From positions 1 to 64,000 of the forward strand of contig CANRPU010000001.1 of NCBI GenBank assembly GCA_947632555.1: 64,000 bases of DNA, in the 5' to 3' direction. Of this stretch, positions 7,244 to 57,127 are shown in pieces. The notes below the pieces were generated by a model that searched no databases, was not told the DNA's origin, and worked only from the letters and a program-made list of their open reading frames with translations. The position numbers and the translations under genes were made by a program. The first letter of the stretch is position 1. Each line of letters starts with the position of its first letter. Origin of the DNA: an uncultured Lachnospiraceae bacterium (GTDB taxonomy: Bacteria > Bacillota > Clostridia > Lachnospirales > Lachnospiraceae).

Positions 7244-7261
7244 TCCAAGTTCCGTATTCCG

Positions 7262-7310
7262 AAAAAAAGAGGCAGGGACAACCTCCCTTCGGAAGCGTCC
7301 CTTGCTCCTC
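7262..7310 (-). terminator. Hairpin plus T run between the SPFH gene and argF
   Basis: On the minus strand an imperfect stem pairs GAGGAGCAAGGGAC with GTCCCTGCCTC, followed by seven T residues. It lies after the SPFH gene and only 18 bp before the argF start codon. There is no room for an argF promoter after it, so it either ends the SPFH transcript incompletely or acts as an attenuator for argF. Confidence 0.7.
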
Positions 7311-7339
7311 TCCTGATTGTATTTTCCCGGCCGCGCGCC

Positions 7340-8257: not shown

Positions 8258-8311
8258 TTAAAAATACCTCTCTTTCTTGTTTTATAGGAAAGTCCTTCCT
8301 AATGATCTTTG

Positions 8312-8749: not shown

Positions 8750-8892
8750 AACAATCCTCGCTTTCCAGAGCCGGGCCGAAACACCCTCGGCCCCTTTTCC
8801 TTCATCTTACTACAGCTCTTTGTTTCCGTCCATACTTTTATTCGCACGTTTTTAAAATTTAATATACCAAACGGCGCACTTTTCATACAGAT

Positions 8893-8931
8893 AAAAAGGG
8901 CTTTTCCGCTTTTCACGGCAAAGCCCTTTTT
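8893..8931. terminator. Bidirectional hairpin terminator
   Basis: AAAAAGGGCTTT pairs with AAAGCCCTTTTT around a short loop. It lies after the cell-wall hydrolase gene on the minus strand and before nfeD, so it separates the two units. Confidence 0.85.
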
Positions 8932-8957
8932 GAAAGATCTCTCTTCCGGATTCTGTT

Positions 8958-39436: not shown

Positions 39437-40517
39437 ATGATACCTCTTTCCATTTGGCTGTCTGTGCCAAATATTCTTTGATCTGCCTGCTCATGCATAT
39501 ATCCGCGCTGCTGCCGTCCAGATAGTCTTTCTGCCACTCTACTATCTTATGTACTGCCGTACGGGAATCCCAGACCGGAGCCCAGCCAAAAGTCCTCTTG
39601 ATTTTAGCGCAGTCCAGTTTTAAGATCCCCGCCTCATGCGGTCCTCCGTCATACCGGTTTACCCACGATATACGCTCATGAAACAGTTCCTGCCATGTTT
39701 CACAAAAAATATCCGCCAGGCGGCCCGTTTCCAGGCAGTCCGATTCTTCCGGTCCGATATTGTAGCTGCCAGCAAAAGCAGCGTCCTCACATTGTTTCGC
39801 CGCGATCATCAGATACGCGGTGACCGGCTCCAGCACATGCTGATAAGGCCTGATAGAATAGGGATTTCTTATCACGATTTCCTGCTTCCCCATGGCCGCC
39901 CGGATGCAGTCAGGCACAATACGATCCCTGGCAAAATCACCGCCACCGATCACATTCCCCGCTCTGGCGGTAGTGATGGCCGTTCTTTTGTCTGAAAAAA
40001 ACGAGCTGCGGTAACAGGCTGTCACCAGCTCCGAACAGGACTTGGAGTTGGAATAGGGATCATACCCGTTCAGTTCTTCATTTTCCCGATATCCCCAATC
40101 CCATTCCCGGTTCAGATATACCTTATCCGTAGTTACGTTTAAAAAAGAACCGACCGATTCCGTCCTCCTGACACATTCCAGTACATTCACAGTTCCCATC
40201 ACGTTTACGTCATAGGTATAGACCGGCTCGGCATAGGACCTTCTGACAAGCGGCTGAGCCGCCATATGGATCACCACCTGCGGCTGAACACTCTGAAACG
40301 TTTTCTCCAGTTTGTCCAGATCTCGGATATCTCCAAAAACGGAATCCATCTTTTTCTGCAGACCGGCCAGCTCAAACAGGCTTTCCCCCGCTTCCGGCAT
40401 AAGCGCATAGCCGTGCAGATCCGCGCCTGCCTCTAAAAGCATTTGGCACATCCAGCTTCCCTTAAAGCCGGTGTGCCCCGTTACCAGTACCCGCTTTCCT
40501 CGATAAAATTCAAGCAT
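39429..40517 (-). CDS. rfbG: CDP-glucose 4,6-dehydratase
   Basis: NAD-dependent SDR that makes CDP-4-keto-6-deoxyglucose from CDP-glucose. VLVTGHTGFKGSWM is the nucleotide motif, NVTTDKVYLNREWDWGY the Thr/Asp region, and YSNSKSCSELV the catalytic Tyr-Lys motif. From ATG 40517 it has 362 residues, a usual length; the track start at 40538 adds seven residues with no suitable ribosome binding site. The start overlaps the upstream glycosyltransferase stop by 8 bp. Together with rfbF and rfbH it defines the CDP-deoxysugar route. Confidence 0.94.
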   Translation of the reverse strand: MLEFYRGKRVLVTGHTGFKGSWMCQMLLEAGADLHGYALMPEAGESLFELAGLQKKMDSVFGDIRDLDKLEKTFQSVQPQVVIHMAAQPLVRRSYAEPVYTYDVNVMGTVNVLECVRRTESVGSFLNVTTDKVYLNREWDWGYRENEELNGYDPYSNSKSCSELVTACYRSSFFSDKRTAITTARAGNVIGGGDFARDRIVPDCIRAAMGKQEIVIRNPYSIRPYQHVLEPVTAYLMIAAKQCEDAAFAGSYNIGPEESDCLETGRLADIFCETWQELFHERISWVNRYDGGPHEAGILKLDCAKIKRTFGWAPVWDSRTAVHKIVEWQKDYLDGSSADICMSRQIKEYLAQTAKWKEVSYV

Positions 40518-41463
40518 CTTCCTTTTGCTCCTCATCAAAATTAATTCTCTCTTCTTCCACGACCAGCGGCCTCTTCATTACACGCTGATTGATGCTTAAA
40601 ATATATTCTCCCAGAAGTCCCAGAAACAGCAACTGGACGGCGCCCAAAAAGAACATCCCGATCAGCACCGGTGCCATTCCCATATTAAACGTGTCCCAGA
40701 AGACCAGCTTCAATATCAAATACGTCAGAGCGATCAGCACACTGAAAAACGCTATTATAAAACCCATAAACGTTGCCAGCCGCAGCCCGACCTTTGTGTA
40801 GGAGGTAAAACTCAGCATAGCGATATCATAAAGTGAATAGAAATTATTTTTGGTCTTCCCCGCTCTCCGCCTTTGCTGCTCATAAGGAATTTCTTTTCTC
40901 TTAAATCCTAATTCCGCTACAATTCCCCGCAGAAAAGGCGTGGGATCGTCCAGTTCCCGCAAGACCTGTATAAACGATCGATCATACAGACCGAATCCTG
41001 TAAAATGCTCTATCTGCTCCACCTCGGAAAACTTTTTGATCAGTTTATAATAACATGTCCGCAGAAAACGCATAAATTTATTTTCCCGACTGGTTGTCTT
41101 GATCGCGCTGACGATCTTATAACCGTTTTCCCATTCCGCCACCAGTTTGGGGATCATCTCTACCGGATCCTGAAAATCCGCGCACATCAGGATGACACCA
41201 TCCCCCGTTGCCTGCTGCAGGCCATAATAAGGAGAATTGTTCTGTCCAAAATTCTTGGCGTTCAAAATCGCTTTGATCTTTTTATTTCCTCCACAGAGTT
41301 CCCGCAGTTTTTCCCTGGTTCCATCCTTGGAATCATTGTCAATAAAAATAATCTCATAGTCATATTGGGACAGTTTTCGCAATTCTGCTTCAACCGCCTG
41401 GCTTAAAGGTTCCACATTTTCAATTTCATTGTACGTGGGGATCAAAACACTGATTTTTTTCAT
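40510..41463 (-). CDS. Polyprenyl-phosphate glycosyltransferase (GtrB/ArnC-like)
   Basis: A 317-residue GT2 enzyme with the DPM1/GtrB layout. The GT-A domain opens ISVLIPTYNEIENVEPL and has CADFQDPVEMIPKL. Two C-terminal membrane helices follow (about residues 228-252 and 262-287), then a charged tail. Such enzymes put a sugar on undecaprenyl phosphate for later transfer outside. It lies between the SDR reductase and rfbG inside the CDP-sugar block, so it may transfer the CDP-derived sugar or start the chain. The donor is not proven. Confidence 0.85.
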   Translation of the reverse strand: MKKISVLIPTYNEIENVEPLSQAVEAELRKLSQYDYEIIFIDNDSKDGTREKLRELCGGNKKIKAILNAKNFGQNNSPYYGLQQATGDGVILMCADFQDPVEMIPKLVAEWENGYKIVSAIKTTSRENKFMRFLRTCYYKLIKKFSEVEQIEHFTGFGLYDRSFIQVLRELDDPTPFLRGIVAELGFKRKEIPYEQQRRRAGKTKNNFYSLYDIAMLSFTSYTKVGLRLATFMGFIIAFFSVLIALTYLILKLVFWDTFNMGMAPVLIGMFFLGAVQLLFLGLLGEYILSINQRVMKRPLVVEEERINFDEEQKEDA

Positions 41464-41476
41464 ATGTTCTCTTCTC

Positions 41477-42532
41477 CTATTTCATTCTGCACGCAATCAC
41501 TCTGGAGAATCCTTCTTTTATAGTTATTTCCGGATTCCATCCCAAAGCTTTGAGTTTTTCATTATTTGGCGGGACTTCATTTGCGAGCGAATTTTCTAAA
41601 TAAGCATCACCCGTTTCCCTTTGCTCGCAATGCACCTGCAAACGCTTCCATGGATGCAGCGATGCTATGGTTTCCGCTACTTCTTTAATACTGTAAAATT
41701 CCTCTGTATTGCATACATTATATGCCTCCCCCGCTTTTCCCTCCAGTAAGATCAAAAAATAAGCAGCCACGGCATCCGAAATATAACAGAAACTCCGTTT
41801 ACTTCTCCCATCACTGTGCATCACGATATCATGTCCCTGTATAACATCTTTCACAAAAGCAGCAAATACCCGCGGATCTTTTTCTAAATCCATGGTTGGC
41901 GCATAGGTATGCCAGATTCTGGCTATCTTTGTCGGAACTCCATTCTGATGAAAATATGCTTTGCACATGGTTTCCGCCATTCTTTTACTTTCCCCGTAAC
42001 AGCTGTGGATATCCAAAGTATCCATTTCTCCCCAGTCGTTTTCCCGCACAGAGGTTTTTCCTTTTACCTTCCCATATACATCTCCGGTAGAAAACAGCAA
42101 ATATCCCTCTACCTTTTTTTGTACTGCTAATTCCAATAAATGGTAATTGCCCACAACATTTGGTTTTAAAACTTCAATTGGAGAAACGCTATAATACTGA
42201 GGACTGGCCGGACTGGCTGCATGTATGATAAAGTTGACCGGTGCATCCATTTCTATCTTTTCTTCCAGCGTATTTTCCCACACCCTCAAATAAGGATATT
42301 GTTCGACCCTTCCAAACCGCTTCTCAAATTTTTCTTTTGAACGGATCAACGCGATGACAGAAATATGCATTCCCTTTTTTTCATTTAAGTACATAATCAT
42401 GAATACCAGATAGGAAGCCAACATTCCATACGCTCCGGTGATCAATACCGTCTTATGATCCAGACGTTCCCACGGAAGTTTTTGGTTAAAAACCTTTTCC
42501 AGATCCTGTTCAATCGTTTTCTCCATACACAT
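41477..42532 (-). CDS. Extended SDR reductase in the CDP-sugar block (YerF-like role proposed)
   Basis: An NAD(P)-dependent epimerase/dehydratase-family protein of 351 residues. The nucleotide motif VLITGAYGMLASYLV, the LLFSTGDVYGKVKG segment and the catalytic Tyr-Lys in SCYGESKRMAETMCKAY are clear. General similarity is to UDP-glucuronate decarboxylase and 4,6-dehydratase relatives. The upstream gene is the ThDP enzyme (22 bp away). In the Yersinia yersiniose route the carboligation product is reduced by YerF, so this protein is a good candidate for that step. A 4-keto reductase giving a simple dideoxy sugar is an alternative. Confidence 0.75.
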   Translation of the reverse strand: MCMEKTIEQDLEKVFNQKLPWERLDHKTVLITGAYGMLASYLVFMIMYLNEKKGMHISVIALIRSKEKFEKRFGRVEQYPYLRVWENTLEEKIEMDAPVNFIIHAASPASPQYYSVSPIEVLKPNVVGNYHLLELAVQKKVEGYLLFSTGDVYGKVKGKTSVRENDWGEMDTLDIHSCYGESKRMAETMCKAYFHQNGVPTKIARIWHTYAPTMDLEKDPRVFAAFVKDVIQGHDIVMHSDGRSKRSFCYISDAVAAYFLILLEGKAGEAYNVCNTEEFYSIKEVAETIASLHPWKRLQVHCEQRETGDAYLENSLANEVPPNNEKLKALGWNPEITIKEGFSRVIACRMK

Positions 42533-42554
42533 GATTTTTATAATCCTTTGAAAA

Positions 42555-44246
42555 CTATAATTCCATTAAATATGTATATAATTGACGTTCCAACAAGGGT
42601 TCCTGATCTTGATTTGGCTTTCCAAATTCCAGTTTTGGAAACACGTAGGTTTCATCGTCCAATAATAACTCGATCAACGCGGGTGTTCTCTCACGAAAAC
42701 AATCTGTCATATTTTCTTTTCCTGTATATTGATAATACGGAATCCCATAAGCTTCCGCAACTCGCTTAAGATTTGGCACCCCATACCCTGTTTCTTCTGT
42801 AGTCTGTGTATAATTTTCAGAAAAATACATCTCCTGAAAATGGCGTATCATTCCCAATGAGTGATTATTAAAAACCAGAACCTTAATCGGCAGTTTTTGA
42901 GAAGACACCAACTGAAGTTCCTGTATATTCATCTGCAGCCCGCCATCTCCATTAAAGCAAAAAACAACCTGATCCGTTGCGTAGTGTGCGCCAATAGCAG
43001 CCGGTAATGAATATCCCATAGCGCCATGTCCTCCTGAAAACAATATCCTTTGACCCTTAAACACAAATGATTGGGCTACCCATACCTGATTTTGTCCCAC
43101 ATCCGTAGTAATAATACCCTGGGAGGGAATTTGTCTGCTGATGGATCCCACCATATCATTTTCTCTGCTGCTATCCCTGCTCGCAAGCTTGTCCTGAATC
43201 TGCCTGCACACCATAATCCACTTGTCAAACGCATTGTCAGGAAGCTGCCAATGGGCATTCAGGTAGTCCAATACCTTTCCTGCATCCGCGCAGATATCCG
43301 TTTCGTCTGTCCGTGCCGCATAGTTTAATTCACCCTGATCAATATCCACTCTTAAAATTTTTGCATTAGGAGCAAAGTTTTCCCTCTTGGCTCCCACTTG
43401 CCTTACATCCAGTCTGGCTCCCAGCGTCAACAACACATCGCATTTTGCCACAATAAAATTTGCCGTTCTGGAACCATACGCTCCAATAAATCCATAATAA
43501 AGACGCCGACAGTCCTTTGGTACATCCACCGCTATCATACTGGTCACTACAGGTATTCCTGAACGCTCCACAAACTGCGCCAGGGCACTCTGGTTTATTT
43601 CATTTTTTAAACCTGCTCCCACTAAAACGCAAGGACGCTTTGCTCCCTCCAATGCTTCTAATATTTCTAAAAACTCCTTCTTATCCTGAGATTCTTTTGG
43701 GGATTCTACTATCCCTGATGGTTCCATTTCCGCCCGAAAGACATCCATTGGAATATCCAGCAGTACAGGTCCCTTTCTTCCCCTCTGAGCAATTTCCCAT
43801 GCCTGATTTATTTCTGCTTCTACATCCTCTGCCTTCCAAAGGCGGCAGCTATATTTTGTAACCCCCTTTACCATACTTACAATATCGGTTTCCTGAAAAC
43901 CTCGTTGCCGGATTTGGTAATTTCCTCTGGCTTCCGTAGTGTTTACCTGTCCAGTCAAAAAAAGTACCGGAATAGAATCAAAATAAGCATTGCATATCCC
44001 AGTAATCAAATTTGTTGCTCCCGGGCCGCTGGTCGCATACGCTACTCCCACTTTATCTGCAGCTTGCGCATAACCACAAGCCGCAAAAGCCGCTCCCTGT
44101 TCATGATAATTGACATGAGAATGAATCTCCGTTTCTCTCTTCTTTAGAGAATCCATAAAATGCGTTACCATTCCTCCCGGATATCCAAAAATATCTGTAA
44201 CGCCTTTTTTAATCAAAAAATCTACAATATAATCCGAAACTTTCAT
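42555..44246 (-). CDS. ThDP-dependent acetohydroxyacid-synthase-like enzyme (YerE-like role proposed)
   Basis: A 563-residue ThDP enzyme of the acetolactate-synthase superfamily. Catalytic Glu lies in NYHEQGAAFAACGYA, the FAD/linker domain follows, and the diphosphate motif is CFNGDGGLQMNIQEL...FNNHSLGMIRH. ATG 44246 is chosen: it lies one base after the rfbF stop with GGAG just before, and begins at the usual MKVSDYIVDFL. No small regulatory subunit or branched-chain amino-acid gene is nearby. In Yersinia, YerE of this superfamily couples pyruvate-derived acetaldehyde to C-4 of CDP-3,6-dideoxy-4-ketohexose. The same role is proposed here from context; plain acetolactate synthase is less likely. 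Confidence 0.82.
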   Translation of the reverse strand: MKVSDYIVDFLIKKGVTDIFGYPGGMVTHFMDSLKKRETEIHSHVNYHEQGAAFAACGYAQAADKVGVAYATSGPGATNLITGICNAYFDSIPVLFLTGQVNTTEARGNYQIRQRGFQETDIVSMVKGVTKYSCRLWKAEDVEAEINQAWEIAQRGRKGPVLLDIPMDVFRAEMEPSGIVESPKESQDKKEFLEILEALEGAKRPCVLVGAGLKNEINQSALAQFVERSGIPVVTSMIAVDVPKDCRRLYYGFIGAYGSRTANFIVAKCDVLLTLGARLDVRQVGAKRENFAPNAKILRVDIDQGELNYAARTDETDICADAGKVLDYLNAHWQLPDNAFDKWIMVCRQIQDKLASRDSSRENDMVGSISRQIPSQGIITTDVGQNQVWVAQSFVFKGQRILFSGGHGAMGYSLPAAIGAHYATDQVVFCFNGDGGLQMNIQELQLVSSQKLPIKVLVFNNHSLGMIRHFQEMYFSENYTQTTEETGYGVPNLKRVAEAYGIPYYQYTGKENMTDCFRERTPALIELLLDDETYVFPKLEFGKPNQDQEPLLERQLYTYLMEL

Positions 44247-44247
44247 C

Positions 44248-45024
44248 CTATCTCCATACTTTCCATGGCGCTTTTCCCGTTTCCCAAAGTTCCTCCAGTT
44301 TTTCTTTTTCTCTCTTCGTATCCATGCACTGCCAAAAACCATCATGCTGATAGGCTGTCAGTTCCCCCATACCAGCCAGTTTTATTAATGGTTCCTTCTC
44401 AAAAACAGTAGCATCGTTTTGAATCAGAGTAAAAACCTGAGGTTCCAGCACCATATAACCCGCATTGATCCTGTTCCCGTTTCCAGAATCTTTTTCCCGG
44501 AATGAAGTTATTCTGTTTTCATCATCTATATCCATAACTCCAAAACGCTGCTCAATATTTACAGCCGTCAGCGTTGCCCATTTTTTCTTTTCCTTATGGT
44601 ATCGGTACAATTCGGCAATATCTATGTCTGATACCCCATCTCCGTATGTGAGCATAAAAGTTTCATTTCCCACATATTTTTGTACTCTTTTTACACGACC
44701 GCCCGTCATGGTATCCAATCCGGTATCTACCAGAGTTACTTTCCACGGCTCAGTCACATTACTATGTACGATCATTTTATTATTTTCAGTAAAATCAAAT
44801 GTCACATCACTATTGTGCAGATAATAATCCGCGAACCATTCCTTGATCACATGTTGTTTGTATCCGCAACAGATCACAAATTCATTGAAACCATAATAGG
44901 AATATTCTTTCATAATATGCCACAGAATCGGTTTCCCGCCAATCTCTATCATGGGTTTGGGCCTCAGGTAACTTTCTTCGCTGATACGGGTTCCGTATCC
45001 ACCCGCCAGAATCACTACTTTCAT
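44248..45024 (-). CDS. rfbF: Glucose-1-phosphate cytidylyltransferase
   Basis: Forms CDP-glucose from CTP and glucose-1-phosphate. The nucleotidyltransferase signature LAGGYGTRISEESYLRPKPM and the segment IGGKPILWHIMKEYS are followed by the YGDGVSDIDI metal region. 258 residues matches RfbF/DdhA. It is the first gene of the CDP-sugar block, and translation of the ThDP enzyme starts one base after its stop. Upstream lies a 527-bp AT-rich gap that should hold the promoter. Confidence 0.94.
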   Translation of the reverse strand: MKVVILAGGYGTRISEESYLRPKPMIEIGGKPILWHIMKEYSYYGFNEFVICCGYKQHVIKEWFADYYLHNSDVTFDFTENNKMIVHSNVTEPWKVTLVDTGLDTMTGGRVKRVQKYVGNETFMLTYGDGVSDIDIAELYRYHKEKKKWATLTAVNIEQRFGVMDIDDENRITSFREKDSGNGNRINAGYMVLEPQVFTLIQNDATVFEKEPLIKLAGMGELTAYQHDGFWQCMDTKREKEKLEELWETGKAPWKVWR

Positions 45025-45551: not shown

Positions 45552-47036
45552 TTATTTCAATAGAATCTTTTCTTTCCCATAGTAGTCCGCGATATTCTCG
45601 TTAATCCAGTAATTCACGTTTCCTTCTTCTACAACATCGGTAAAGTACAATACCTTAGGCCGGACAGTAAAAGGCTCTACCTCTACAACGCTTATTGTAT
45701 CATCCTGATAGAGAGCCAGCCTTTCCTGTGCCTGCTCATAATAACTTCTGGCTTCTCCATTTACCAAAGAACGCAGTGCGGACATGGAAGAAAATGTATT
45801 TTTATCGGAGGTTCCCACAAACACCAGCAGTACTAAGGCAAATGCCAGCCACCGGTATGTCCACAGATATTTTTTCAGAATCTCCTTTATTGCACAGCAG
45901 TCTTTCCAGAAACCCTTTTTACGGTTTTCCATCTTCCTTTGTATCCATCCCGTCCAATAAAACGCGTTTATCCATATCATGATATAAAAAATACTCTGCA
46001 TCTGATTCTGTATTCTTCCCGCGGCTACATTTCCTACTCCATACAGTGAGGGAGTAAACGCTGCCGCGAACAAGCAAAAACTGCCTGCGCTGACCAATCC
46101 CGGCAGCTGATACGTTATATTTTTTTCACGCTTTATAATCTTCCATATGACCGGCAAAGCAGCCAATAGACATACAATTAATAATGGAGAAAACCACTTT
46201 CTGACATATCCCGGCGCCATCAGAAGCGACTTCATTATGGCAGAAAAAGCTGTGTTTCCATATGCGTTAGAACGCCTGATCATATTCCCCGGCGCTGTAA
46301 CGCTAAGCCCAAATCCCAAAAGCAGTGATAAAAAGGGCAGTATATTTTGCCACGACAATTTTTTCCGGTTGATAAACAAATATCCTATATACCATAGCAG
46401 GCACTGTAGTACTGTCGCATACTGACAGCCTCCAATAACAAAAGCGTAAATAGCGATTCCGGCCGCCGCCAAAATCTTACTTGGCATCCGTTTCAAGGAT
46501 TCGCTTTTTATCAGAAAAACAAACAAGAGCAGCATCGCATAATGTAAAAAGGTATAAAGCCCCGCGCCGCCATACCAATATAACGCTTCCACTGGGGAAG
46601 GCAAAGTTTCCAGCAGAAGAAAAGCCATTACTCCCCAAAGGAAACAAATATCTTGCTTTTCTGCCGGATAAAATTTCCGAATTACCGTTTTTACAAATAA
46701 ATAAGTAGCAAGTAAAAGCATTCCCAGCATTAAAATAGGTGTTACACAGGCTAATTTTTCTGAATAAATAACAGGATTCAACCCGCCCAAAAAACAGCCG
46801 GTAAAGTATCCCATCCAATTATGCCATGCCCATATAATGCTTCGAAAAGCTCCCTTCCATACCTCCAGAACATTTCCCGTCTGTTCCCAAATACGATGCA
46901 ATCCCTTACCGCTGGAATAATCATCCGCGGCCATAACATTATAACGTCCGATCACCAGCAGCGGGATTAAGCATCCCACTAAGAGCATTATCATACATAT
47001 CGTTAAAAAGTTATCGTTTTTCCCCCACCGTGACAA
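45552..47036 (-). CDS. DUF6056-like polytopic membrane protein, copy 1
   Basis: A protein of about 494 residues with about 11 membrane segments. The conserved-looking motifs are MAADDYSSG in the first outer loop, EALYWYGGAG and VTAPGNMIRRSN. I associate this pattern with DUF6056, possible GT-C-type enzymes, without certainty. The acidic DDY pair would suit a lipid-linked sugar transferase. The only ATG with a good ribosome binding site (47057, behind AAGGAG) meets an in-frame TGA at codon 4 where copy 2 has GGA. The ORF therefore depends on a weak TTG start at 47036 or an internal ATG. It may be poorly expressed or newly inactivated. Confidence 0.7.
   Translation of the reverse strand: MSRWGKNDNFLTICMIMLLVGCLIPLLVIGRYNVMAADDYSSGKGLHRIWEQTGNVLEVWKGAFRSIIWAWHNWMGYFTGCFLGGLNPVIYSEKLACVTPILMLGMLLLATYLFVKTVIRKFYPAEKQDICFLWGVMAFLLLETLPSPVEALYWYGGAGLYTFLHYAMLLLFVFLIKSESLKRMPSKILAAAGIAIYAFVIGGCQYATVLQCLLWYIGYLFINRKKLSWQNILPFLSLLLGFGLSVTAPGNMIRRSNAYGNTAFSAIMKSLLMAPGYVRKWFSPLLIVCLLAALPVIWKIIKREKNITYQLPGLVSAGSFCLFAAAFTPSLYGVGNVAAGRIQNQMQSIFYIMIWINAFYWTGWIQRKMENRKKGFWKDCCAIKEILKKYLWTYRWLAFALVLLVFVGTSDKNTFSSMSALRSLVNGEARSYYEQAQERLALYQDDTISVVEVEPFTVRPKVLYFTDVVEEGNVNYWINENIADYYGKEKILLK
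45568..45806. repeat. 239-bp perfect repeat, copy 1
   Basis: Identical base for base to 52578-52816 by direct reading. It covers codons for roughly the last 80 residues of the DUF6056-like gene. Similarity falls sharply on both sides, to nothing after the stop and to a partial match upstream. Confidence 0.9.
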
Positions 47037-47101: not shown

Positions 47102-48124
47102 TTATTTAAGAAAAGTTTTCTTTAATACTCCGTATTCTTTATTTGCATTTTTTAGTTTACTGCTCAAAGTATCCCGCATTTCTTCTGTCAGCCAGCTGCT
47201 GCCATCCGCGCAAACTCTGTCACGAAGCTCCGCATAAGCTGGTGCCGGTATCTCAGGAATAATCCCCAATGTCAGAAACGCATGTCCATTAAAGCAGTGC
47301 GTAGAAGGACATTTGGTCCCGACTGCTCTAAAAGGCAGTTTTTTATTAATATTCTCATAAATATTATGACACAGTTCCTTTCCTTCATAGCACTGTGTCA
47401 TGCGTCCGGTCAATAAATCTACCGCGAAAAACCAATCGCCTGCATAGCAAAATTCACAGCGTCGCTTCCCCCAAATTTCGCTCTTAAACGCCAGCAGTGA
47501 GGAATCAAACTCTCCCCATTGTTCTACCAGTTCCTTTAACGAATAGCGGGAAAGAAGTTTATGTTCCAGAGTCGTATCATCTCTCGGGATTGTAACATGG
47601 CATATAGCGCCGGCCTTCTCCATACATATTTTTTTGATTTCTTCCTTTACTTCCAAATATTTATCATCCGGGGTCAATTCAATGGTAAAAGAACAGCCTG
47701 CCTTTTTCATATTATTGATGTTTTCAAAAAAAGTTTCCATGGTCCCCGTTCGGAGCAGTTCAAAATAATGCAGGGAAAACTTAAAAAATATCCTCTTCCG
47801 ATATTCTTCCCGCATATCCATAATCTTTTGAAAAAAGGCAGTATAGATCCCATTCGTAACAACCGAAAGTACATGTCCTTCCGCCAGCAGTTCTTCCATT
47901 AGCAGCGGTAATTCTTGAAGCAGCGTGGTTTCTCCTGCCGCGCATAAATTGATCAGGGCAGGCCCTCCGAGTCTTTTGAAACTCAGTGCCCTGCCGATTT
48001 CTTCAGGATCGTGCGACAGCCCGCATACAACTTTACTGATATTCTTATCCAGATAACAGTAAGAACACTTCATATTGCAGATATTTACCGGTATATAAGC
48101 TTCAATGTACCTTTTCAGCTGCAT
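47102..48124 (-). CDS. Radical SAM protein with C-terminal cysteine cluster
   Basis: A 340-residue radical SAM enzyme. The [4Fe-4S]/SAM motif is NICNMKCSYCYLDKN at residues 16-30. A C-terminal set of cysteines (RRCEFCYAGDW, MTQCYEG, TKCPSTHCFNG) resembles an auxiliary SPASM-type cluster. The gene lies between the pyruvyltransferase fusion and the DUF6056-like gene in a glycan export unit, and a decayed copy lies in the same relative place in module B. That linkage suggests it acts on the glycan, its lipid or a peptide attached to it. No substrate can be named. Confidence 0.85.
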   Translation of the reverse strand: MQLKRYIEAYIPVNICNMKCSYCYLDKNISKVVCGLSHDPEEIGRALSFKRLGGPALINLCAAGETTLLQELPLLMEELLAEGHVLSVVTNGIYTAFFQKIMDMREEYRKRIFFKFSLHYFELLRTGTMETFFENINNMKKAGCSFTIELTPDDKYLEVKEEIKKICMEKAGAICHVTIPRDDTTLEHKLLSRYSLKELVEQWGEFDSSLLAFKSEIWGKRRCEFCYAGDWFFAVDLLTGRMTQCYEGKELCHNIYENINKKLPFRAVGTKCPSTHCFNGHAFLTLGIIPEIPAPAYAELRDRVCADGSSWLTEEMRDTLSSKLKNANKEYGVLKKTFLK

Positions 48125-48136
48125 ATTGCCTTCTCC

Positions 48137-50161
48137 TTAATGAGCGATCATCTCAGCCAACTTGTCAAATTCTTTCCGCAGCAGTCGGGCCGGCCAGTTC
48201 GCGTTTTCCTCGGTCTTTACTAAAACCTTTTCCATTTCCTGTTGTATATTTTCTATACTATCACAGAATATAATGTATTGCAAATCCCCGATCCATTCAT
48301 GTACACCTGAAATCTTATGGTTATAATTATCAAGTACCACGCAGGGCGTTCCCGTTATCGCGGCAAAGATCATTCCATGCAGCCGATCGGTAATTACCAG
48401 TTCCGCGCTTTGATATTGCCGCATAATCTCCCGCAAATATGCATCTCTGTCTTGAAGCATGATATCAAACGCATATTGGTGATCTATATATTTATAGGCC
48501 AATCCACAGGATATTACCGCTTTTTCAATCACCTTTCGCATTTCTTCATTTAAACAACTTTCAAAATCACTTCGAAGGCAGAGTAATGCTCCTTTACGAT
48601 GTCCTCCCATCTCTCTTCTATCCGAAAACAACACAATATCAGGTACTAATTCTACTCTGCCATTAAAAATCATTGCGGCCTGCTGTAAGGACTGTCTGTC
48701 CCGTACTGTCAGCAGCAATTTTTTATGCCCGCAATAAATCTCTCTTGTCCTTTGCGCCTGAAGTTTCCCCTCTTCCGTATTTGAAAAATAAACAGTTTGC
48801 GGGAAAATAATAATTTTATTTTTGGGGAAAGCGCTAATAACATCCCTTCTGATCGTTTCGGAGTACGGATAAGCATCTCCAAGATTGCCACCTCCCGGTG
48901 TGCATATCCAATCCCAATTCCTGACATATTTTTTGATCTGTAACATTTTTTGCCGGTAATCAGAAGCCTCGATCTCAATAATCTTATATTGGGGAAAATA
49001 GTATTTCAAAAATTCCCGTATGGACACAGCGATCTGATGATCTCCCAGATTTCCCGCGTCTTCACTTCCTATCAGAAAAATATTTCTTCTGTGCCTCCAA
49101 TACGCAAGATAAGGAATTAATCCCCTTACAACCACCTTTTGATAAGCTCTTACAGTCAGACTGGGGCGATAAGTCCATTTATCGCCATATAACTTTTCGC
49201 AAAATCCCAACAGTCTGCCTGTATAATCCGGGCCAAAGTACTTCCGAACTTTGGTTGCTTTACCATACAGCGCTTTTGCGTTATGGTATACAAAAGCATC
49301 CTCTCTGATCTGCTTCAATCCGGCTTCTACCGCTTCCTCGCTTTTTTTCTGTCCTTCGTTGAAAAGCAGGATTCCAAAGATAACAGGATAATTTTTCCAG
49401 CATTTTTCTTTGAAACGGCGTTCTTCCAGATATTGCCAAAAACACTTCGCTAATTCCGTAATCTCCTTGGCATTGCACCTTTTACCCTTGTTTCCCATAA
49501 TAGAATTTTCTCTCGTCAGGTAACAGTACAATAAATCTCCGATTCCGGTAATCCTCTCCGCGTACATTAAATACATCAGCAAAAACAAGATATCTTCCGC
49601 GAAAATCCTGTCGTTATCCACAAACCAAAGCGCGTTTTCTCTGATGATATCCCCTCTATAAACCCGATTCCACGCCTCCCAGCATTGTCCGTACTGTAAC
49701 AATACCCGTACAAAATAGTCATACTTTTCCTGTTGGCTTTTCAGTGCATACGATTTTTCCTGAGGCATCACATTCCTTTGTACCTCTTCATTTTCATTTA
49801 TACATTTATAACCAAATGCCACCATATCAGTCCGTGTCTTCTGAAACACGTCCAATACTCTTTCCAACAGATTTTCTTCTATATAGTCATCACCGTCAAC
49901 AAAATAAATATACTCTCCGGCCGCAACACGCAATCCCGCGTTTCTGGCATCGGACAAACCGCCGTTTTCTTTATGTATGACTCGTAAACGGCTGTCTTCC
50001 CTGGCATAGCGGTCACATATGCCGCCGCTCGCGTCCCGGGATCCATCATCTACTAAGATGACCTCAAAATCCTGATAACTCTGACGCAATATGCTTTTTA
50101 AACACTTATCAAGATACTTTTCTACCTGATAAACCGGCACAATAATGCTAAATTTAGGCAT
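48137..50161 (-). CDS. Glycosyltransferase-polysaccharide pyruvyltransferase fusion
   Basis: A 674-residue two-domain protein. The N-terminal GT-A domain (about residues 1-230) has FSIIVPVYQVEKYLDKCL and the DxD region YFVDGDDYIEENLL. After a helical linker a pyruvyltransferase domain starts near residue 355 (FLIGSEDAGNLGDHQIAV), with PGGGNLGDAYPY and the C-terminal ITDRLHGMIFAAITGTPCVVLD. It could add a sugar and then a pyruvyl ketal. It lies 10 bp after the ABC ATPase gene and 12 bp before the radical SAM gene. The broken paralogue in module B shows the fusion is ancestral. Confidence 0.88.
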   Translation of the reverse strand: MPKFSIIVPVYQVEKYLDKCLKSILRQSYQDFEVILVDDGSRDASGGICDRYAREDSRLRVIHKENGGLSDARNAGLRVAAGEYIYFVDGDDYIEENLLERVLDVFQKTRTDMVAFGYKCINENEEVQRNVMPQEKSYALKSQQEKYDYFVRVLLQYGQCWEAWNRVYRGDIIRENALWFVDNDRIFAEDILFLLMYLMYAERITGIGDLLYCYLTRENSIMGNKGKRCNAKEITELAKCFWQYLEERRFKEKCWKNYPVIFGILLFNEGQKKSEEAVEAGLKQIREDAFVYHNAKALYGKATKVRKYFGPDYTGRLLGFCEKLYGDKWTYRPSLTVRAYQKVVVRGLIPYLAYWRHRRNIFLIGSEDAGNLGDHQIAVSIREFLKYYFPQYKIIEIEASDYRQKMLQIKKYVRNWDWICTPGGGNLGDAYPYSETIRRDVISAFPKNKIIIFPQTVYFSNTEEGKLQAQRTREIYCGHKKLLLTVRDRQSLQQAAMIFNGRVELVPDIVLFSDRREMGGHRKGALLCLRSDFESCLNEEMRKVIEKAVISCGLAYKYIDHQYAFDIMLQDRDAYLREIMRQYQSAELVITDRLHGMIFAAITGTPCVVLDNYNHKISGVHEWIGDLQYIIFCDSIENIQQEMEKVLVKTEENANWPARLLRKEFDKLAEMIAH

Positions 50162-50171
50162 CCCCGTTCCC

Positions 50172-51455
50172 TCATGATCTGCTCAAGATCTCAATCTGCG
50201 GCAGAGCTACATGCCCCCAGTAACGGTGGCTCCATTCCATACCATATGCCGCATCCTCTTTTCTTTTAATTTCAAAACAAAACGCGTCCTTAATCCCGTC
50301 ACAATTATATCTGGTCCCATATCTGTTCACTTCATATAATACCAAACTTAACGTATATTTTCCCGAAACGACCTCCGCTAAATTCAAAGAAAATATAATT
50401 TCTTCTTCCTTATCCGCCCTTAGCCGCAATTCTTGCGGACTCGTCATCATACTGACCGGAGATCCATCCGCATAATTCATAACAATCCGCAAACTCAGGT
50501 CCTTAGCATCTCTATATCCTTCATAACGCAGACGGAAACGAACTTTTTCACAGTCCGTAAAACAGCCATTTGCATAATCCAGAGCCTCCAAGCTGAGCAG
50601 TTTGGCTGAAAGCCCCTGAAATTCTTCCGGCCTTTCCATATTTCTCAAATCTACAAGAGAAGAGGATTCTTTTTGGTTTCCCATATATATTTTTACTGCT
50701 TCTTCTACTCCACCGTCAAAGATTATTTTCCCCTGATCCAGCACAATACAGCGATTGCAAAGCTGCTGAATCGTATTCATATTGTGACTGACATACAGAA
50801 CCGTTCTACCCTCTTTATCCGCCACGCTTCCCATCTTGTTCAAACATTTTTCCTGAAAACGCATATCTCCCACAGCCAGGACCTCATCCATTACAAGAAT
50901 CTCCGAATCCAAATGAGCCGCAACCGCAAAGGCCAGTTTTACATACATTCCGGAAGAATACCTCTTGACAGGAGTATCAATAAATTTCGCGCATTCCGAG
51001 AAAGTAATGATATCCGCAATTTTTTCATCTACCTCTCTTTTTTTCATACCTAAGATAGCGCCATTCAGATATATATTTTCCCGCCCTGTCAGTTCACCGT
51101 GAAATCCTGTCCCCACCTCAAGCATGCTGGATATTCTGCCATTCAGTTTAACGCACCCTTCCGTAGGCGCTGTTACCCTGGATAGTATTTTTAGCAGCGT
51201 AGATTTTCCTGCGCCGTTTCTTCCAATAATGCCAAGTGTATCACCTTGATATACTTTTAAATCCAGCCCATTTAAGGCCCAGAATTCCTTAGGGCCTTTT
51301 TCCATATCCACAGCTGTCAATACTGTATTGGGATCCTCTTTTCCCTGTTTTCTGGCCCACCAGCTTTGCAGATCGGCAGCAAAAGAGCCGCTTCCGATTG
51401 CTCCAAGACGATACTTTTTTCTCAGATTTTCTATTTCGATAACCGTTGCCCTCAT
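50172..51455 (-). CDS. ABC transporter ATPase with Wzt-like C-terminal domain
   Basis: Energises export of a polyprenyl-linked polysaccharide. Walker A is GIIGRNGAGKSTLLKIL, the signature VKRYSSGMYVKLAFAVAAHL, Walker B ILVMDEVLAVGD. Beyond about residue 255 there is a C-terminal beta-sandwich of about 150 residues (LSLRIVMNYADGSPV) like the Wzt domain that reads chain ends. It is therefore closer to Wzt than to plain TagH. The permease gene lies 12 bp upstream. A fragment of a second copy remains in module B. Confidence 0.92.
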   Translation of the reverse strand: MRATVIEIENLRKKYRLGAIGSGSFAADLQSWWARKQGKEDPNTVLTAVDMEKGPKEFWALNGLDLKVYQGDTLGIIGRNGAGKSTLLKILSRVTAPTEGCVKLNGRISSMLEVGTGFHGELTGRENIYLNGAILGMKKREVDEKIADIITFSECAKFIDTPVKRYSSGMYVKLAFAVAAHLDSEILVMDEVLAVGDMRFQEKCLNKMGSVADKEGRTVLYVSHNMNTIQQLCNRCIVLDQGKIIFDGGVEEAVKIYMGNQKESSSLVDLRNMERPEEFQGLSAKLLSLEALDYANGCFTDCEKVRFRLRYEGYRDAKDLSLRIVMNYADGSPVSMMTSPQELRLRADKEEEIIFSLNLAEVVSGKYTLSLVLYEVNRYGTRYNCDGIKDAFCFEIKRKEDAAYGMEWSHRYWGHVALPQIEILSRS

Positions 51456-51467
51456 TGTTCTGCTTCC

Positions 51468-52310
51468 TTATACCGTATCCATAAAAGTTTTTTCAACTCT
51501 ATTAAATAAAACCGCGCCCAGCAAGAAAATAACTCCTGTCACCCCCCAGCTGATTCCCCAGGACAAAAACGGAATTTCTCCGATTCCTAAAAAAGCATAT
51601 CGGAAAATCACAATAGCAGGAGCAATAGGGTTCAGCAGATATAAGAACTGATATTTCTCGGGAATTTGACTCAGTGGATAAACTATAGGGCTGGCATACA
51701 TCCAAAGCTGCACCCCAAACGTTACCAAAACACTTAAATCTCGGTATTTCGTTGTCACTGAAGATACAATAATACCGATTCCCATACCCAGTACCGCCAC
51801 CTGCAATACCAAGGCGGGCAGAAGCAGGATGCTGCCATTCATCCGAATGGTTACTCCCGATATCATATAAATTCCGCAAATCACCAAAAACAATACAAAC
51901 TGTATCAAGAAATCCAGTAATCCCGTCAACACTGTTGAAATTGGCATCACTAACCGGGGAAAATACACTTTTCCAAGGATTCCGGCATTATTTACAAAAG
52001 TTCCTGATGTCTGATTAATACAAGTCGCGAAATAGGACCATAAAATATTTCCACCAAAATAGAACGCTAATGCGGGAACCCCTTCTGTCGGTATCTGCGC
52101 GATACCACCAAATACAACCGCATACATAAATGTTGTAAAAAGCGGGTTAATGATCAGCCAAAGAGGCCCCAATATCGTCTGCTTATATCGGGTAGTATAA
52201 TTTCTCTTCACAAACAGGAAGATCAAATCTTTATACGCTGCCAATTCTCTTAAATTTAATTCATACCATTTATTACCCGGTTTTAAAACTGTTGTCCAAT
52301 TTTCTTCCAT
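51468..52310 (-). CDS. ABC transporter permease, Wzm/TagG-like
   Basis: A 280-residue permease of the ABC-2 polysaccharide-export type. It has an amphipathic N-terminus (LRELAAYKDLIFLFVKRN), the RYKQTILGPLWLIINPL region and about six membrane helices. It opens module A, with a TTGTAT/TATAAT promoter about 85 bp upstream. It works with the Wzt-like ATPase encoded next. A second, broken copy lies at 61075-61403. Confidence 0.92.
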   Translation of the reverse strand: MEENWTTVLKPGNKWYELNLRELAAYKDLIFLFVKRNYTTRYKQTILGPLWLIINPLFTTFMYAVVFGGIAQIPTEGVPALAFYFGGNILWSYFATCINQTSGTFVNNAGILGKVYFPRLVMPISTVLTGLLDFLIQFVLFLVICGIYMISGVTIRMNGSILLLPALVLQVAVLGMGIGIIVSSVTTKYRDLSVLVTFGVQLWMYASPIVYPLSQIPEKYQFLYLLNPIAPAIVIFRYAFLGIGEIPFLSWGISWGVTGVIFLLGAVLFNRVEKTFMDTV

Positions 52311-52558: not shown

Positions 52559-54073
52559 CTATTTCATCAATAATACTTTTTCTTTCCCATAGTAGTCCGC
52601 GATATTCTCGTTAATCCAGTAATTCACGTTTCCTTCTTCTACAACATCGGTAAAGTACAATACCTTAGGCCGGACAGTAAAAGGCTCTACCTCTACAACG
52701 CTTATTGTATCATCCTGATAGAGAGCCAGCCTTTCCTGTGCCTGCTCATAATAACTTCTGGCTTCTCCATTTACCAAAGAACGCAGTGCGGACATGGAAG
52801 AAAATGTATTTTTATCAGATGTTCCCACAAACACCAGCAATATCAGGGCAAACGCCAGCCACCGGTATGCCCACAGATATTTTTTCAGGATATCCTTTAT
52901 TGCGCAACAGTCTTTCCAAAAATCTTTTTGACTGTTTTCCATCTTTCTTTGTATCCATCCTGTCCAGTAAAACGCGTTTATCCATATCACAATATAAAAA
53001 ACGCTTTGTATCTGATTCTGTATTCTTCCGGAATCCACATTACCCACTCCATATAGCGAAGGAGTAAATGCCGCGGCAAATAAGCAAAAACTCCCTATGC
53101 TGACCAGTCCTGGCAGCTGATACGTTATATTTTTTTCACGCTTTATAATCTTCCAGATAACCGGAGCAGCTACCAGCAGACACGCAATCAGCAGTGGAGA
53201 AATCCAATGTCGCAAATAACGAAAAGATTCCGAAAAAGACAACAGTATTGCGCTGGCAGGCGGCATTCCAACCGATTGAGAATGCCTCGTTGCATTTCCC
53301 GGTGCCAGCATACTGATCACAAATCCACAGCCTAAAGACAAAAAAGAAATTACCTTATACCACGTCAGCCGCTTCCGTTCTATGAATATATACACTGCGT
53401 ACCACAGCATGCATTCTAAAACCGTTCCATACTGTCCGCCTCCTATTATAAAAGCAAATAAAATAAGGAGTATTCCTGACACCGTTATCCGTCCATTGCT
53501 TTTTAATCTCTCTATGTGAAACGCAAACGCAAACAACAACAGTGTAGAAAAATGCAGAAAAGTGTAAGCTACCGCTCCGCTATACCAATACAACGCTTCC
53601 ACTGGTCCCGGCAATGTCTGAAGCAATAAAAATACTATCAGAGCCCATAAAATGACTCTATCACGCTTATCATCTGTGTAATATTTTATCAGGATTTCCT
53701 TGACTAGGCAGTACGTACCAAGCAGTATTATAATCAACATTACACACGGTGTTATCCAAGTCAGCCGTTCAGACAGCATTCCCGGATTCAGACTGTCCAG
53801 AAAATCAACGGTAAAGCAGCCTTGCCACGTCCGGTATGCTTCTATTATGTGTATAAATGCGTAATATAAAACAGAACACATATCGTCGGTGGTTACCCAG
53901 ATTTGATGTACCACCTTGCCCATAGCGTAATCATCCGCGGCCATAACATTATAACGTCCGATCACCAGCAACGGAATCAGACTGACCGTCAGCAAAAGTA
54001 GCATATATCGTTCAAATCGGTCATGTTTTTTTGCCAAATTCTGTAATTTTCTCTTTCCCTGTTCCATCATCAT
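52559..54073 (-). CDS. DUF6056-like polytopic membrane protein, copy 2
   Basis: A 504-residue paralogue of the 45552-47036 protein, with about 11 membrane segments and the same landmarks (MAADDYAMG, EALYWYSGAV, LAPGNATRHS). The C-terminal 80 or so residues are encoded by DNA identical to copy 1. This copy has a clean start: ATG ATG ATG directly at the stop of the broken glycosyltransferase upstream, behind AAGGAAACGG. It is last in module B and is probably still expressed. Function is unknown; a lipid-linked sugar transferase is possible. Confidence 0.75.
   Translation of the reverse strand: MMMEQGKRKLQNLAKKHDRFERYMLLLLTVSLIPLLVIGRYNVMAADDYAMGKVVHQIWVTTDDMCSVLYYAFIHIIEAYRTWQGCFTVDFLDSLNPGMLSERLTWITPCVMLIIILLGTYCLVKEILIKYYTDDKRDRVILWALIVFLLLQTLPGPVEALYWYSGAVAYTFLHFSTLLLFAFAFHIERLKSNGRITVSGILLILFAFIIGGGQYGTVLECMLWYAVYIFIERKRLTWYKVISFLSLGCGFVISMLAPGNATRHSQSVGMPPASAILLSFSESFRYLRHWISPLLIACLLVAAPVIWKIIKREKNITYQLPGLVSIGSFCLFAAAFTPSLYGVGNVDSGRIQNQIQSVFYIVIWINAFYWTGWIQRKMENSQKDFWKDCCAIKDILKKYLWAYRWLAFALILLVFVGTSDKNTFSSMSALRSLVNGEARSYYEQAQERLALYQDDTISVVEVEPFTVRPKVLYFTDVVEEGNVNYWINENIADYYGKEKVLLMK
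52578..52816. repeat. 239-bp perfect repeat, copy 2
   Basis: Identical to 45568-45806; see that entry. The two copies are direct repeats about 7 kb apart and could support recombination that deletes or duplicates module A. Confidence 0.9.
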
Positions 54074-55107
54074 CCGTTTCCTTTTTTGCTTCTTAAGATC
54101 TCATATCGGCGGAATAAATATAATTCCATGTGATTCCGCAAGCACGGATTTTCCATAGTTTTCAGAATCCGCTTCATTCTTGAGGATGTCCTTACTTCTT
54201 TTCCATATTTTATCACACATTTCCCTGTATGGGAACCCGCGACCTGCTTTATCGGCGCAGTCAGGCCTTTCTGCCCAAGTATCTCCCGCAAGCGCAAATG
54301 CGGTGTCAGCATATTGTCCAGCATATAGCAGGCGTAGGACCACAACTGCCGTTCCAAAACTTTCCACCGGGATTTCTTAGTCCTGAAGCACTCTTCCAAG
54401 TGTCCCACCAGAAGCAGGAGCTCTTCAGTATAATAAATTCTCACAATGGCATGGGATATGGAGGTTTCCCGCATCCGATAAAAGTAATCATGCTGACCTC
54501 TCAAGTATACAACCTTTTCTGCTTTTAAAAGACACGAAAAAACAGGCTGCACCCTCTCCCCAGCCGGATTCGTTCATCAACAGTTCCCTGCCATAACAGC
54601 AGCAACGCCCTGCGAAATAACTTTGCGCAGAGAGATGGCTGAAATCCAAAAGAAAAATATTCCCCTTTACTCAGCATGCAGGGATATATTTTCTCTTCCA
54701 GTTCTTTTTTCCGTAGACCCCGCCTTCCATATTCTGAGTAAGGGCCTCCTGCTCCTTCTCTTTCGCGAGCATAAAATCCGCGATTACGATATCCGCGGTT
54801 TCCCGTTTCGCCGCCAGGCATAAGTTTTGCAGCATATCGGACGCGATCCAATCGTCCCCGTCCACGTAAGCCGCGTAATGCCCGCCGCCAGACCGGCTTT
54901 TCTGGCGCTGACAAGCCCGCCAAGCACTCTCACCCTTGCATTTACCGTGGCGTACCCGTCACAAAGCTGTCCCGTGCTGTCAGTAGAGCCATCATCCACC
55001 AGCAACAGTTCAAAATCAGTAAAACTCTGCGCCAGAATACTGTTCACACATTTTCTGATATAATCTTCCACATTATAAGCAGGTACGATAATACTTACAA
55101 ACGGCAT
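54070..55107 (-). pseudogene. Frameshifted family 2 glycosyltransferase
   Basis: A paralogue of the enzyme at 55985-57127, broken into at least four reading-frame pieces. Frame one gives FVSIIVPAYNVEDYIRKCVN to about 54900. The DGDDWIASDM segment is in a second frame (ORF to 54671). KGEYFSFGFQPSLCAKLF is in a third (ORF to 54525). The C-terminal part SISHAIVRIYYTEELLLL is in the 54070-54552 ORF. About ten residues around the usual IHKENGG are also missing. The four ORF-track lines here are one dead gene, not separate proteins. Its final TGA overlaps the start of the DUF6056-like copy 2. Confidence 0.85.
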
Positions 55108-55152
55108 CTTCTTTTCTCTCCTACTGCTTTCTGTTGATCCACCATTGTTTCC

Positions 55153-55567
55153 CTACGCATCCTCACGATCCCGGAGAGAGGCATAGATAGGATTTCCCAG
55201 TTTCGGAATATCTCCTAATGTTAAAAATACGTATCCGTTACAACAATGCGCTATTCTGCATCTTTTTTCTACCGCTTTAAAATGCAGTGGCTTATTCGGA
55301 TCATCATATATATTATCCAGCAATCGTCCTTCATAGCACTGTGTCATCACGCCAATCCCCAAATTTACATATACGCTCCATATACGTTAAAATTATACGC
55401 TCCCAGCCGTTTTTGTGACAGACCTTTCTAATCTCATTGGGAGTATGACCTATAGGCAGTATCCCGTCTTTCCATTTCCGTTGCCTTGTAATATAACAGT
55501 AATGACATTTCAGATTACAGGTGGTAATAGGAATATAGCACTCTACATATCTTTTTATCTTATCCAT
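55153..55567 (-). pseudogene. Radical SAM gene with large internal deletion
   Basis: A relic of a paralogue of the radical SAM gene at 47102-48124. The N-terminus keeps the SAM motif TTCNLKCHYCYITRQ. The next part is garbled, and the C-terminus (VMTQCYEGRLL, RIAHCCNGYVFLTLG) follows in another frame. About 200 residues of the core are gone, so no enzyme can be made. The start overlaps the end of the pyruvyltransferase relic, reproducing the gene order of module A. Confidence 0.85.
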
Positions 55568-55984
55568 AAATGATCTTCTTCATAAACTCATGGTACATTG
55601 CGCTTATCTTATACGCATGATATCTGCAAGCACCTTTCGGAAGTTCTTCCAATATTTTAAACTGTCCACCTCATATCGGACATGATCCAACTCCTGCACC
55701 TATTTATAGATTTCCGCCATTTCAATGTCCGTATCGATTTCTTCCACCGTTTCATAAACCGAAAGCAGTGTTTCGCTCAGTTTCTTCCGCGTCTTTATAT
55801 TCAATACTCCCTCCGCATCATTCCTTAAAAGAAGCAGCACTCCCCGCCTATCAGGATCAGATGGTCTTCTTCGCAAAGCAGCTTGCGAAAAAAGATGGCA
55901 TAGTCCCCCAGATTTCCATGATTCGGCGTTCCAAAAATCACTACATTTTTACGCCCTTATTAATTCCGTACTTTTCCCTTATCC
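55560..55984 (-). pseudogene. Pyruvyltransferase-domain relic
   Basis: No ORF in the track covers this, but minus-strand translation shows VVIFGTPNHGNLGDYAI, the characteristic start of a polysaccharide pyruvyltransferase domain. LLLRNDAEGVLNIKTRKKL and the tail KISAMYHEFMKKIIYG follow, in different frames with stops and a large deletion. Just upstream, an alternative frame of the adjacent glycosyltransferase end reads KVRIREKYGINKGV, which joins naturally to this domain. It is therefore the lost second half of the 55985-57127 gene, matching the fusion at 48137-50161. Confidence 0.8.
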
Positions 55985-57127
55985 TCACTTTGTCCTTTGC
56001 CGCTTTGATGGCGTGGGATAACAAGGCAGACACACTCTGTTCCAAAGAATTGAAACTGCCCTGTTTATCAATGGTACTTTTTCATACAGATGGAACAAAT
56101 ATAAATTTATTTTTGGCAGAAGCCCCTCTTCTGCTATTACGCGCAATATCCTTTTCGCTCTCGAAGAAGTTCTGCACTTCGCACAATATGCGATCATTGC
56201 CTGTCCTGCGGATGAAGTTTTTATAACGGACAGCTGCCTTTGAAAACTCTTGGAAAAAAACAACGTCTTAAAATTCAGGCATGCTGATATCATGTTTTCA
56301 AACATATAACACGCATATAGGCATAATTGTCCATGCAGTATATCCTGCCATTCCGCATATTTATTAAATTGTACATTCATACCGTTCAGCAGTCTTAATA
56401 TTTCTTCCGCGTAAAAAGTTTTTTTAACAGAATGAGATATTGAATCAGACCTTATCCGGTAATAATACAGATACTGTTCTTTCAGATAACAGATATTGTC
56501 TGCCGCAAGAAGCACAGGATAAAAACATGCCGCGTCTTCGCCCAGTTTGATATTTTCATCTACCTGCATCTGGACCGCTCCAAGCAGCTCCCTCTTAAAA
56601 ACCTTTGCCCATACATGCGGCCAAAAACCAAAGGAAAAATATTCTCCCTTACACAGCATATGAGGATATACTTTTCTGATCAATTCTTTCTTGGAATACC
56701 GGCCCGCCCTCATATTCTGTGTAGTACCGGATTTTTCTTCCGGACTTGCGATAAAAAAATCCGCTATCACAATATCCGTGTTCTGTGCGGCAGCGCACCC
56801 ACAAAGTTTTTCAAACATATCCCGAGCGACCCAGTCATCTCCGTCCACATAAGCCGCATACTCACCTGCCGCTTCTGCCAGACCGGCTTTTCTGGCGCTG
56901 ACCAGTCCTCCGTTTTCTTTATGGATTACTCTCACTCTTGCATCGTTCTGCGCATAATGATCGCAGATCTCACCCGTGCTGTCCACAGATCCGTCATCCA
57001 CCAGCAGCAGTTCAAAATCAGTAAAACTCTGCGCCAGAATACTGTCCACGCACTCTCTGATATAATCTTCCACATTATAGGCTGGTACAATAATACTCAA
57101 AAAAGGTATATGCTTGTTTCTTTGCAT
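55985..57127 (-). CDS. Family 2 glycosyltransferase, truncated half of a former fusion
   Basis: A 380-residue GT-A enzyme. FLSIIVPAYNVEDYIRECVD, VDDGSVDSTGEICDHY and YVDGDDWVARDMFEKL are intact, so the catalytic domain may still work. The last 20 or so residues (PCYPTPSKRQRTK) are out-of-frame sequence. The true frame continues into the pyruvyltransferase relic at 55560-55984. It begins at the base after the upstream pyruvyltransferase stop. Closest relative in the window is the broken gene at 54070-55107, then the N-terminal half of the 674-aa fusion. Confidence 0.8.
   Translation of the reverse strand: MQRNKHIPFLSIIVPAYNVEDYIRECVDSILAQSFTDFELLLVDDGSVDSTGEICDHYAQNDARVRVIHKENGGLVSARKAGLAEAAGEYAAYVDGDDWVARDMFEKLCGCAAAQNTDIVIADFFIASPEEKSGTTQNMRAGRYSKKELIRKVYPHMLCKGEYFSFGFWPHVWAKVFKRELLGAVQMQVDENIKLGEDAACFYPVLLAADNICYLKEQYLYYYRIRSDSISHSVKKTFYAEEILRLLNGMNVQFNKYAEWQDILHGQLCLYACYMFENMISACLNFKTLFFSKSFQRQLSVIKTSSAGQAMIAYCAKCRTSSRAKRILRVIAEEGLLPKINLYLFHLYEKVPLINRAVSILWNRVCLPCYPTPSKRQRTK

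Follow-up and report, generated by a model that had tools for sequence, protein, structure and literature searches.

We identified a family of putative radical SAM enzymes of the twitch type whose genes almost always accompany one subfamily of polysaccharide pyruvyltransferases. We propose, with a probability of roughly 0.6, that the enzyme tailors a glycan and that its partner is a ketal pyruvyltransferase dependent on PEP, both acting in the cytoplasm on the repeat unit of a capsule or exopolysaccharide. The gene was found in a window of 64,000 nucleotides from an uncultured Lachnospiraceae bacterium, an anaerobe of the gut, this window being the whole stretch of DNA that was analysed (Table 1).

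The radical SAM gene and its window

The radical SAM ORF is intact and encodes 340 aa. Its match to the Pfam model Radical_SAM (PF04055) scored 35.3 bits against a cut-off of 29.5 (E 1.6e-8), which places it in the radical SAM superfamily. No curated NCBIfam model reached its cut-off for this protein, and the STM4011 radical SAM family (NF038073) scored 23.4 bits, below its 200-bit cut-off. The SAM-cluster motif CX3CX2C (C16, C20 and C23) and four auxiliary cysteines, arranged as C226-X13-G240-X4-C245 and C272-X4-C277, were invariant in both of our 17-row alignments, and these two alignments held no other invariant cysteine. A twitch domain, with a single auxiliary cluster, is recognized by CX9-15GX4C together with another two cysteines, which brings the auxiliary cysteines to four, and this is the pattern that we found. 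The full SPASM set of seven cysteines (CX9-15GX4C-CX2CX5CX3C-C) was absent, as only four auxiliary cysteines are conserved in the two alignments. The original prediction of a SPASM-like cysteine tail therefore holds for the conserved tail itself, but its motifs make this tail a predicted one-cluster twitch domain and not a full SPASM domain. Structure prediction, which had been suggested as a check, gave a confident AlphaFold2 model (pLDDT 91.6, pTM 0.92), and Foldseek searches of the PDB returned twitch/SPASM radical SAM folds. The radical SAM matches were SuiB, SkfB, BlsE, anSME, DesII, MoaA, viperin, BtrN and EpeE; among the matches listed, BlsE had the highest TM-score over the query, at 0.56 (TM 0.56/0.58).

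Table 1 Features of the window, in order of position.
Feature	Position	Strand	Basis
DUF6056 membrane protein, downstream of the radical SAM/transferase pair	45552..47036	-	Pfam
Twitch-type radical SAM gene (predicted)	47102..48124	-	ORF calling, Pfam, two alignments, AlphaFold2, Foldseek
GT2 glycosyltransferase fused to PF04230 pyruvyltransferase, 674 aa	48137..50161	-	Pfam; PEP-site residues; Pvg1p 5ax7 profile match
Pyruvyltransferase part of the GT2 fusion	about 48137-49075	-	
Wzt-like ABC exporter ATPase	50172..51455	-	Profile searches
Wzm-like ABC exporter permease	51468..52310	-	Profile searches
Second DUF6056 membrane protein, downstream of the decayed module	52559..54073	-	Pfam; nucleotide comparison
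Broken (frame-shifted) GT2 gene of the old module	54070..55122	-	
Relic, radical SAM C-terminal twitch part (residues about 231-315 and beyond)	55060..55383	-	In-frame stop
Relic, radical SAM N-terminal part (residues 1-53)	55409..55567	-	Sequence comparison
Relic pyruvyltransferase, same subfamily as the window partner, 58 aa open	55700..55876	-	
Intact GT2 glycosyltransferase adjoining the relics	55985..57127	-	Pfam
281-aa protein without Pfam identity	59918..60763	-	Profile searches, locus comparison

The gene upstream encodes a GT2 domain (E 1.9e-38) joined to a PS_pyruv_trans domain (E 4.4e-32; both from Pfam), and the Wzm/Wzt genes precede it. Its closeness to the radical SAM gene had been noted, and the measured gap is exactly 12 bp. 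The window also holds a CDP-sugar gene set at 38099-45024 (minus strand), with a glucose-1-phosphate cytidylyltransferase, an acetolactate-synthase-like TPP enzyme, an NAD-dependent epimerase/reductase, a CDP-glucose 4,6-dehydratase and RfbH. We take this set to recall the pathway to yersiniose, a branched 3,6-dideoxysugar, with the TPP enzyme presumably in the role of YerE.

A second module in the window is decayed. The relic of the radical SAM gene that had been noticed there is real and consists of two fragments, its centre having been lost, and only N-terminal and C-terminal stretches are left. A pyruvyltransferase remnant sits just upstream, and the module retains traces of both partners. 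The relic is 38-51% identical to the intact window copy and equally near to the copies of other genera; because it is no closer to the former than to the latter, on this comparison it is an old, diverged paralogue and not a recent duplicate, and we rejected a recent tandem duplication. What had been called a duplicated module is thus an old paralogous cluster, and the two modules are nearly identical only where the DUF6056 genes end. Their last 300 nt are 96% identical (45557-45856 versus 52567-52866) and the remainder is more diverged, a pattern that looks like gene conversion. The radical SAM relative of one other genome (G210) is likewise broken.

Radical SAM genes and one subfamily of pyruvyltransferases

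Relatives were drawn from 397 Lachnospiraceae genomes, class and phylum samples, a scan of 84,980 species, plasmids and one metagenomic scaffold. Deduplication gave 35 radical SAM genes in 34 loci, several of which are MAG contigs, and the genomes are not independent samples. Genes in these loci were simple ORF calls of at least 50 aa. Carriers were found in Lachnospiraceae (16 of the 397 genomes), other Clostridia, Bacilli, Treponema, Synergistaceae and others. This survey of genome neighbourhoods, also suggested beforehand as a check, showed that, across the 35 genes and 34 loci, the family belongs to capsule/exopolysaccharide loci and does not neighbour RiPP precursors, which makes a glycan the most likely target of the modification. 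A sugar, a lipid carrier or a teichoic-type polymer had been named as possible targets; nothing points to the last two, because the radical SAM/transferase pair is present in both Wzm/Wzt exporter and Wzx flippase loci. In Lachnospira eligens, for example, a glycosyltransferase gene is followed by the pyruvyltransferase gene (EUBELI_RS11780), the radical SAM gene (EUBELI_RS11775) and a Wzx-type (flippase-type) gene. The setting had been described as a polysaccharide export operon, which the upstream Wzt/Wzm genes bear out for the window, but the constant partner in relatives is the pyruvyltransferase and not the exporter.

A PF04230 pyruvyltransferase lies within three genes of 31 of the 35 radical SAM genes, is fused to two and is absent from two. 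In 24 of the 33 unfused cases the two genes are direct neighbours, whereas 5.6 such cases would be expected if placement among the same-strand genes of these loci were random. One or two genes separate the partners in seven loci. The two fusions differ in layout. A Treponema MAG has the radical SAM part followed by the transferase, and genome G803 has an extra N-terminal domain ahead of the same order. A structure model of the fused protein showed two good domains in an arrangement that is unreliable (pTM 0.56); its PDB matches were led by Pvg1p, then WbbZ (6x1l) and then BlsE, the best radical SAM match. The members without a nearby transferase are L060, a truncated distant gene, and L050, a fusion. 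In the latter (G344:C4, 8455-10425) the radical SAM member is joined, as judged by eye, to an SGNH-hydrolase-like and a YGAG nucleotide-binding-like domain. It adjoins a RecD2-type helicase gene, and a normal radical SAM/transferase pair lies elsewhere in the same genome (L051).

One relative (L065) lies on an unannotated 5.3 kb scaffold from faeces, MT838384.1, deposited as an unverified bacteriophage, on which the radical SAM gene is accompanied by pyruvyltransferase and GT2 genes. Because the latter two are among its genes, the scaffold is probably bacterial capsule DNA. We rejected a phage origin of the gene, as a single-protein search of viral contigs gave no relative.

The partner domain scored 112.6 bits against the PF04230 cut-off of 25.3, and profile searches of the PDB matched Pvg1p (5ax7; E 4.8e-46) and WbbZ (E 1.8e-12). 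Window residues D374, R487, R530, R593, H595 and K616 align with D106, R217, R266, R337, H339 and K361 of Pvg1 and are conserved in 32 to 36 of 36 family sequences; they correspond to residues for which binding of PEP or of the acceptor has been reported in Pvg1p and CsaB (PMC4872226, PMC10435577). The best reading of the partner is a predicted PEP-dependent ketal pyruvyltransferase.

This transferase subfamily occurs in 15 of the 16 radical-SAM-positive Lachnospiraceae genomes compared with 26 of the 397 overall (Fisher p 2e-19 across the 397 genomes, without phylogenetic correction). Another 11 genomes have the transferase without the radical SAM gene, a class that may hide radical SAM genes on missing contigs; they are spread across the tree of the subfamily, which takes at least three, and probably seven, changes. 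Because of these 11 scattered genomes the dependency, as read from gene content, is one-way: the radical SAM gene is accompanied by the transferase, which can itself do without the radical SAM gene. Eighteen genomes held 49 PF04230 places, 18 of them at a radical SAM gene. The linked proteins have shorter cores and, with a profile built from linked transferases, scored 144-350 bits where the unlinked scored 10-34, the profile being partly circular. In a 57-row tree all linked proteins fell on one side of a single branch (support 97/95), and in the wider sample their subfamily is not exclusive to radical SAM loci. Distances among the radical SAM proteins correlate with those among their transferases (Mantel r 0.41, with 0 of 2,000 permutations as high; r 0.19 for the nearest GT2). 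Capsule genes move together and are co-inherited for many reasons, and the surveyed rows are not phylogenetically independent. At one locus (L143 of G273, 7149-9472) a member of this transferase subfamily lacks a radical partner and lies beside a ferredoxin-type iron-sulfur protein, and pyruvyltransferases may therefore have other redox partners.

A third gene recurs at eight loci (the window, L024, L026, L032, L036, L038, L053 and L057), all with the radical SAM gene, which it often adjoins, and was found in none of the 11 transferase-only genomes. Its products are about 230-280 aa, longer in L036, and share the motifs HFSIDD ... SIF ... FTHEW. Pfam and PDB profiles gave no identity; the family is perhaps a distant NodB-type deacetylase.

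Proposed order of steps and alternatives

In the reading that we favour, the transferase would first form a pyruvate ketal on one sugar of an oligosaccharide that is still being built and is probably linked to undecaprenyl. The radical SAM enzyme would then cleave SAM and take a hydrogen from this pyruvylated sugar or from the pyruvyl group. The residue would thereby be oxidised, rearranged or epimerised, and the product would afterwards be exported by Wzm/Wzt or, in other loci, flipped by Wzx. We infer that the substrate is a glycan, that it is lipid-linked and that the radical step comes after pyruvylation, both enzymes presumably acting on the same repeat-unit sugar; the substrate of the radical SAM enzyme is probably the pyruvylated sugar. 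The order of the two steps is read solely from the nested distribution of the two genes. Since the transferase is used alone elsewhere and lipid-PP-linked units have been reported to receive their pyruvate in the cytoplasm (PMC11447030), the radical reaction most likely takes place on the lipid-linked unit after pyruvylation.

The opposite order, in which the radical SAM enzyme acts first and epimerises, oxidises or deoxygenates the acceptor sugar so that the ketal can form, much as BtrN, NeoN, DesII or BlsE modify other sugars, is possible but in our view rather unlikely. It would account for the adjacency and fusion of the two genes, and the sugar-acting BlsE, DesII and BtrN are among the nearest folds in the Foldseek matches listed. 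However, the acceptor need not be prepared in the 11 scattered genomes in which the transferase subfamily occurs without the radical enzyme. NeoN- and EpeE-type epimerases use a donor cysteine for hydrogen, and in the two alignments no cysteine outside the clusters is invariant and so available for this role. This argues weakly against epimerisation of that type and leaves oxidation, elimination or rearrangement as candidate reactions. A doubtful variant of pyruvylation followed by the radical step has the pyruvate ketal as the enzyme's direct target. If hydrogen were abstracted from the sugar carbon that bears a ketal oxygen, the ketal C-O bond could break, and the cyclic pyruvyl ketal would become a carboxyethyl (lactyl) ether or some other substituent derived from pyruvate. 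We know of no enzymatic route to carboxyethyl ether decorations by such ketal opening. Carboxyethyl ethers of galactose and rhamnose have been reported in Butyrivibrio exopolysaccharide, and a Butyrivibrio carries the radical SAM/transferase pair (L026).

It is improbable that the gene is just one of many interchangeable capsule-tailoring genes, next to a transferase that is merely common in such loci. Gene content does shuffle among the surveyed loci and further tailoring genes recur in them, but the excess of adjacency over random placement, the two fusions and the involvement of one PF04230 subfamily despite the presence of others in the same 18 genomes all speak for a special tie to pyruvylation. 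A role as a maturase, for example of an anaerobic sulfatase or a cross-linked peptide, is far less credible. SuiB, SkfB and anSME are also among the Foldseek matches, but no maturase family model reached its cut-off, the constant partner is a sugar enzyme and there is little space for a precursor, since gaps flanking the radical SAM gene are mostly below 40 bp in the 34 loci. As originally noted, no peptide precursor gene is seen, and no short ORF recurs beside the radical SAM gene among the called genes (at least 50 aa) of these loci; we rejected a RiPP maturase on the lack of an adjacent precursor gene there. Viperin models are the best curated matches by E-value, yet the match covers only residues 14-94 and scores 30.1 bits against the NF038283 cut-off of 180, and neither the twitch domain nor the capsule setting fits an antiviral nucleotide enzyme. 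With N-terminal matches only, far below cut-off, viperin-like defence was rejected and retains a negligible probability.

Significance and comparison with known systems

It had been suggested that a radical modification of a sugar, lipid carrier or teichoic-type polymer would be new in this setting. Two radical SAM genes are listed in the Campylobacter jejuni HS:19 capsule locus (PMC8743553), so that radical SAM genes in such loci are known, but they were listed without the transferase pairing. Our search, which covered the open-access literature and left subscription papers largely outside, found no description of a radical SAM gene paired with a polysaccharide pyruvyltransferase. The pairing suggests an undescribed radical step in the decoration of bacterial surface sugars, a step that in gut and rumen anaerobes would be coupled to the pyruvylation of sugars in surface polysaccharides. 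Because pyruvate groups lend surface glycans charge and a role in recognition, a further radical change would create new epitopes. Culturable carriers include Lachnospira eligens ATCC 27750, Eubacterium ramulus and Butyrivibrio sp. AE2015, and the results offer grounds for giving a family name to proteins whose only database label is 'radical SAM protein'.

Viperin and prokaryotic viperins share with the window protein the N-terminal SAM-binding stretch, but the window protein has an extra twitch domain and no defence context. SuiB, SkfB and anSME have a similar fold with an auxiliary-cluster domain, whereas the window protein has four auxiliary cysteines only and no gene for a peptide or sulfatase substrate nearby. 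On the transferase side, Pvg1p, WbbZ and CsaB (PF04230) resemble the partner domain in PEP-binding residues and, for Pvg1p and WbbZ, in profile matches; unlike the family described here, they have no reported need for, or fusion to, a radical SAM enzyme, and a review of sugar pyruvylation does not mention the term 'radical SAM' (PMC6801904). There is also a likeness to the twitch/SPASM-type radical SAM enzymes that act on sugars or cyclitols. BlsE, a decarboxylase of cytosylglucuronic acid (PMC3715490), BtrN and DesII share the partial TIM barrel, the CX3CX2C motif and a C-terminal extension of the auxiliary-cluster type at about 12-14% sequence identity to the window protein, and NeoN is grouped with them by function. 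These four enzymes serve antibiotic pathways, whereas the window protein stands in a surface polysaccharide setting with a pyruvyltransferase as its partner.
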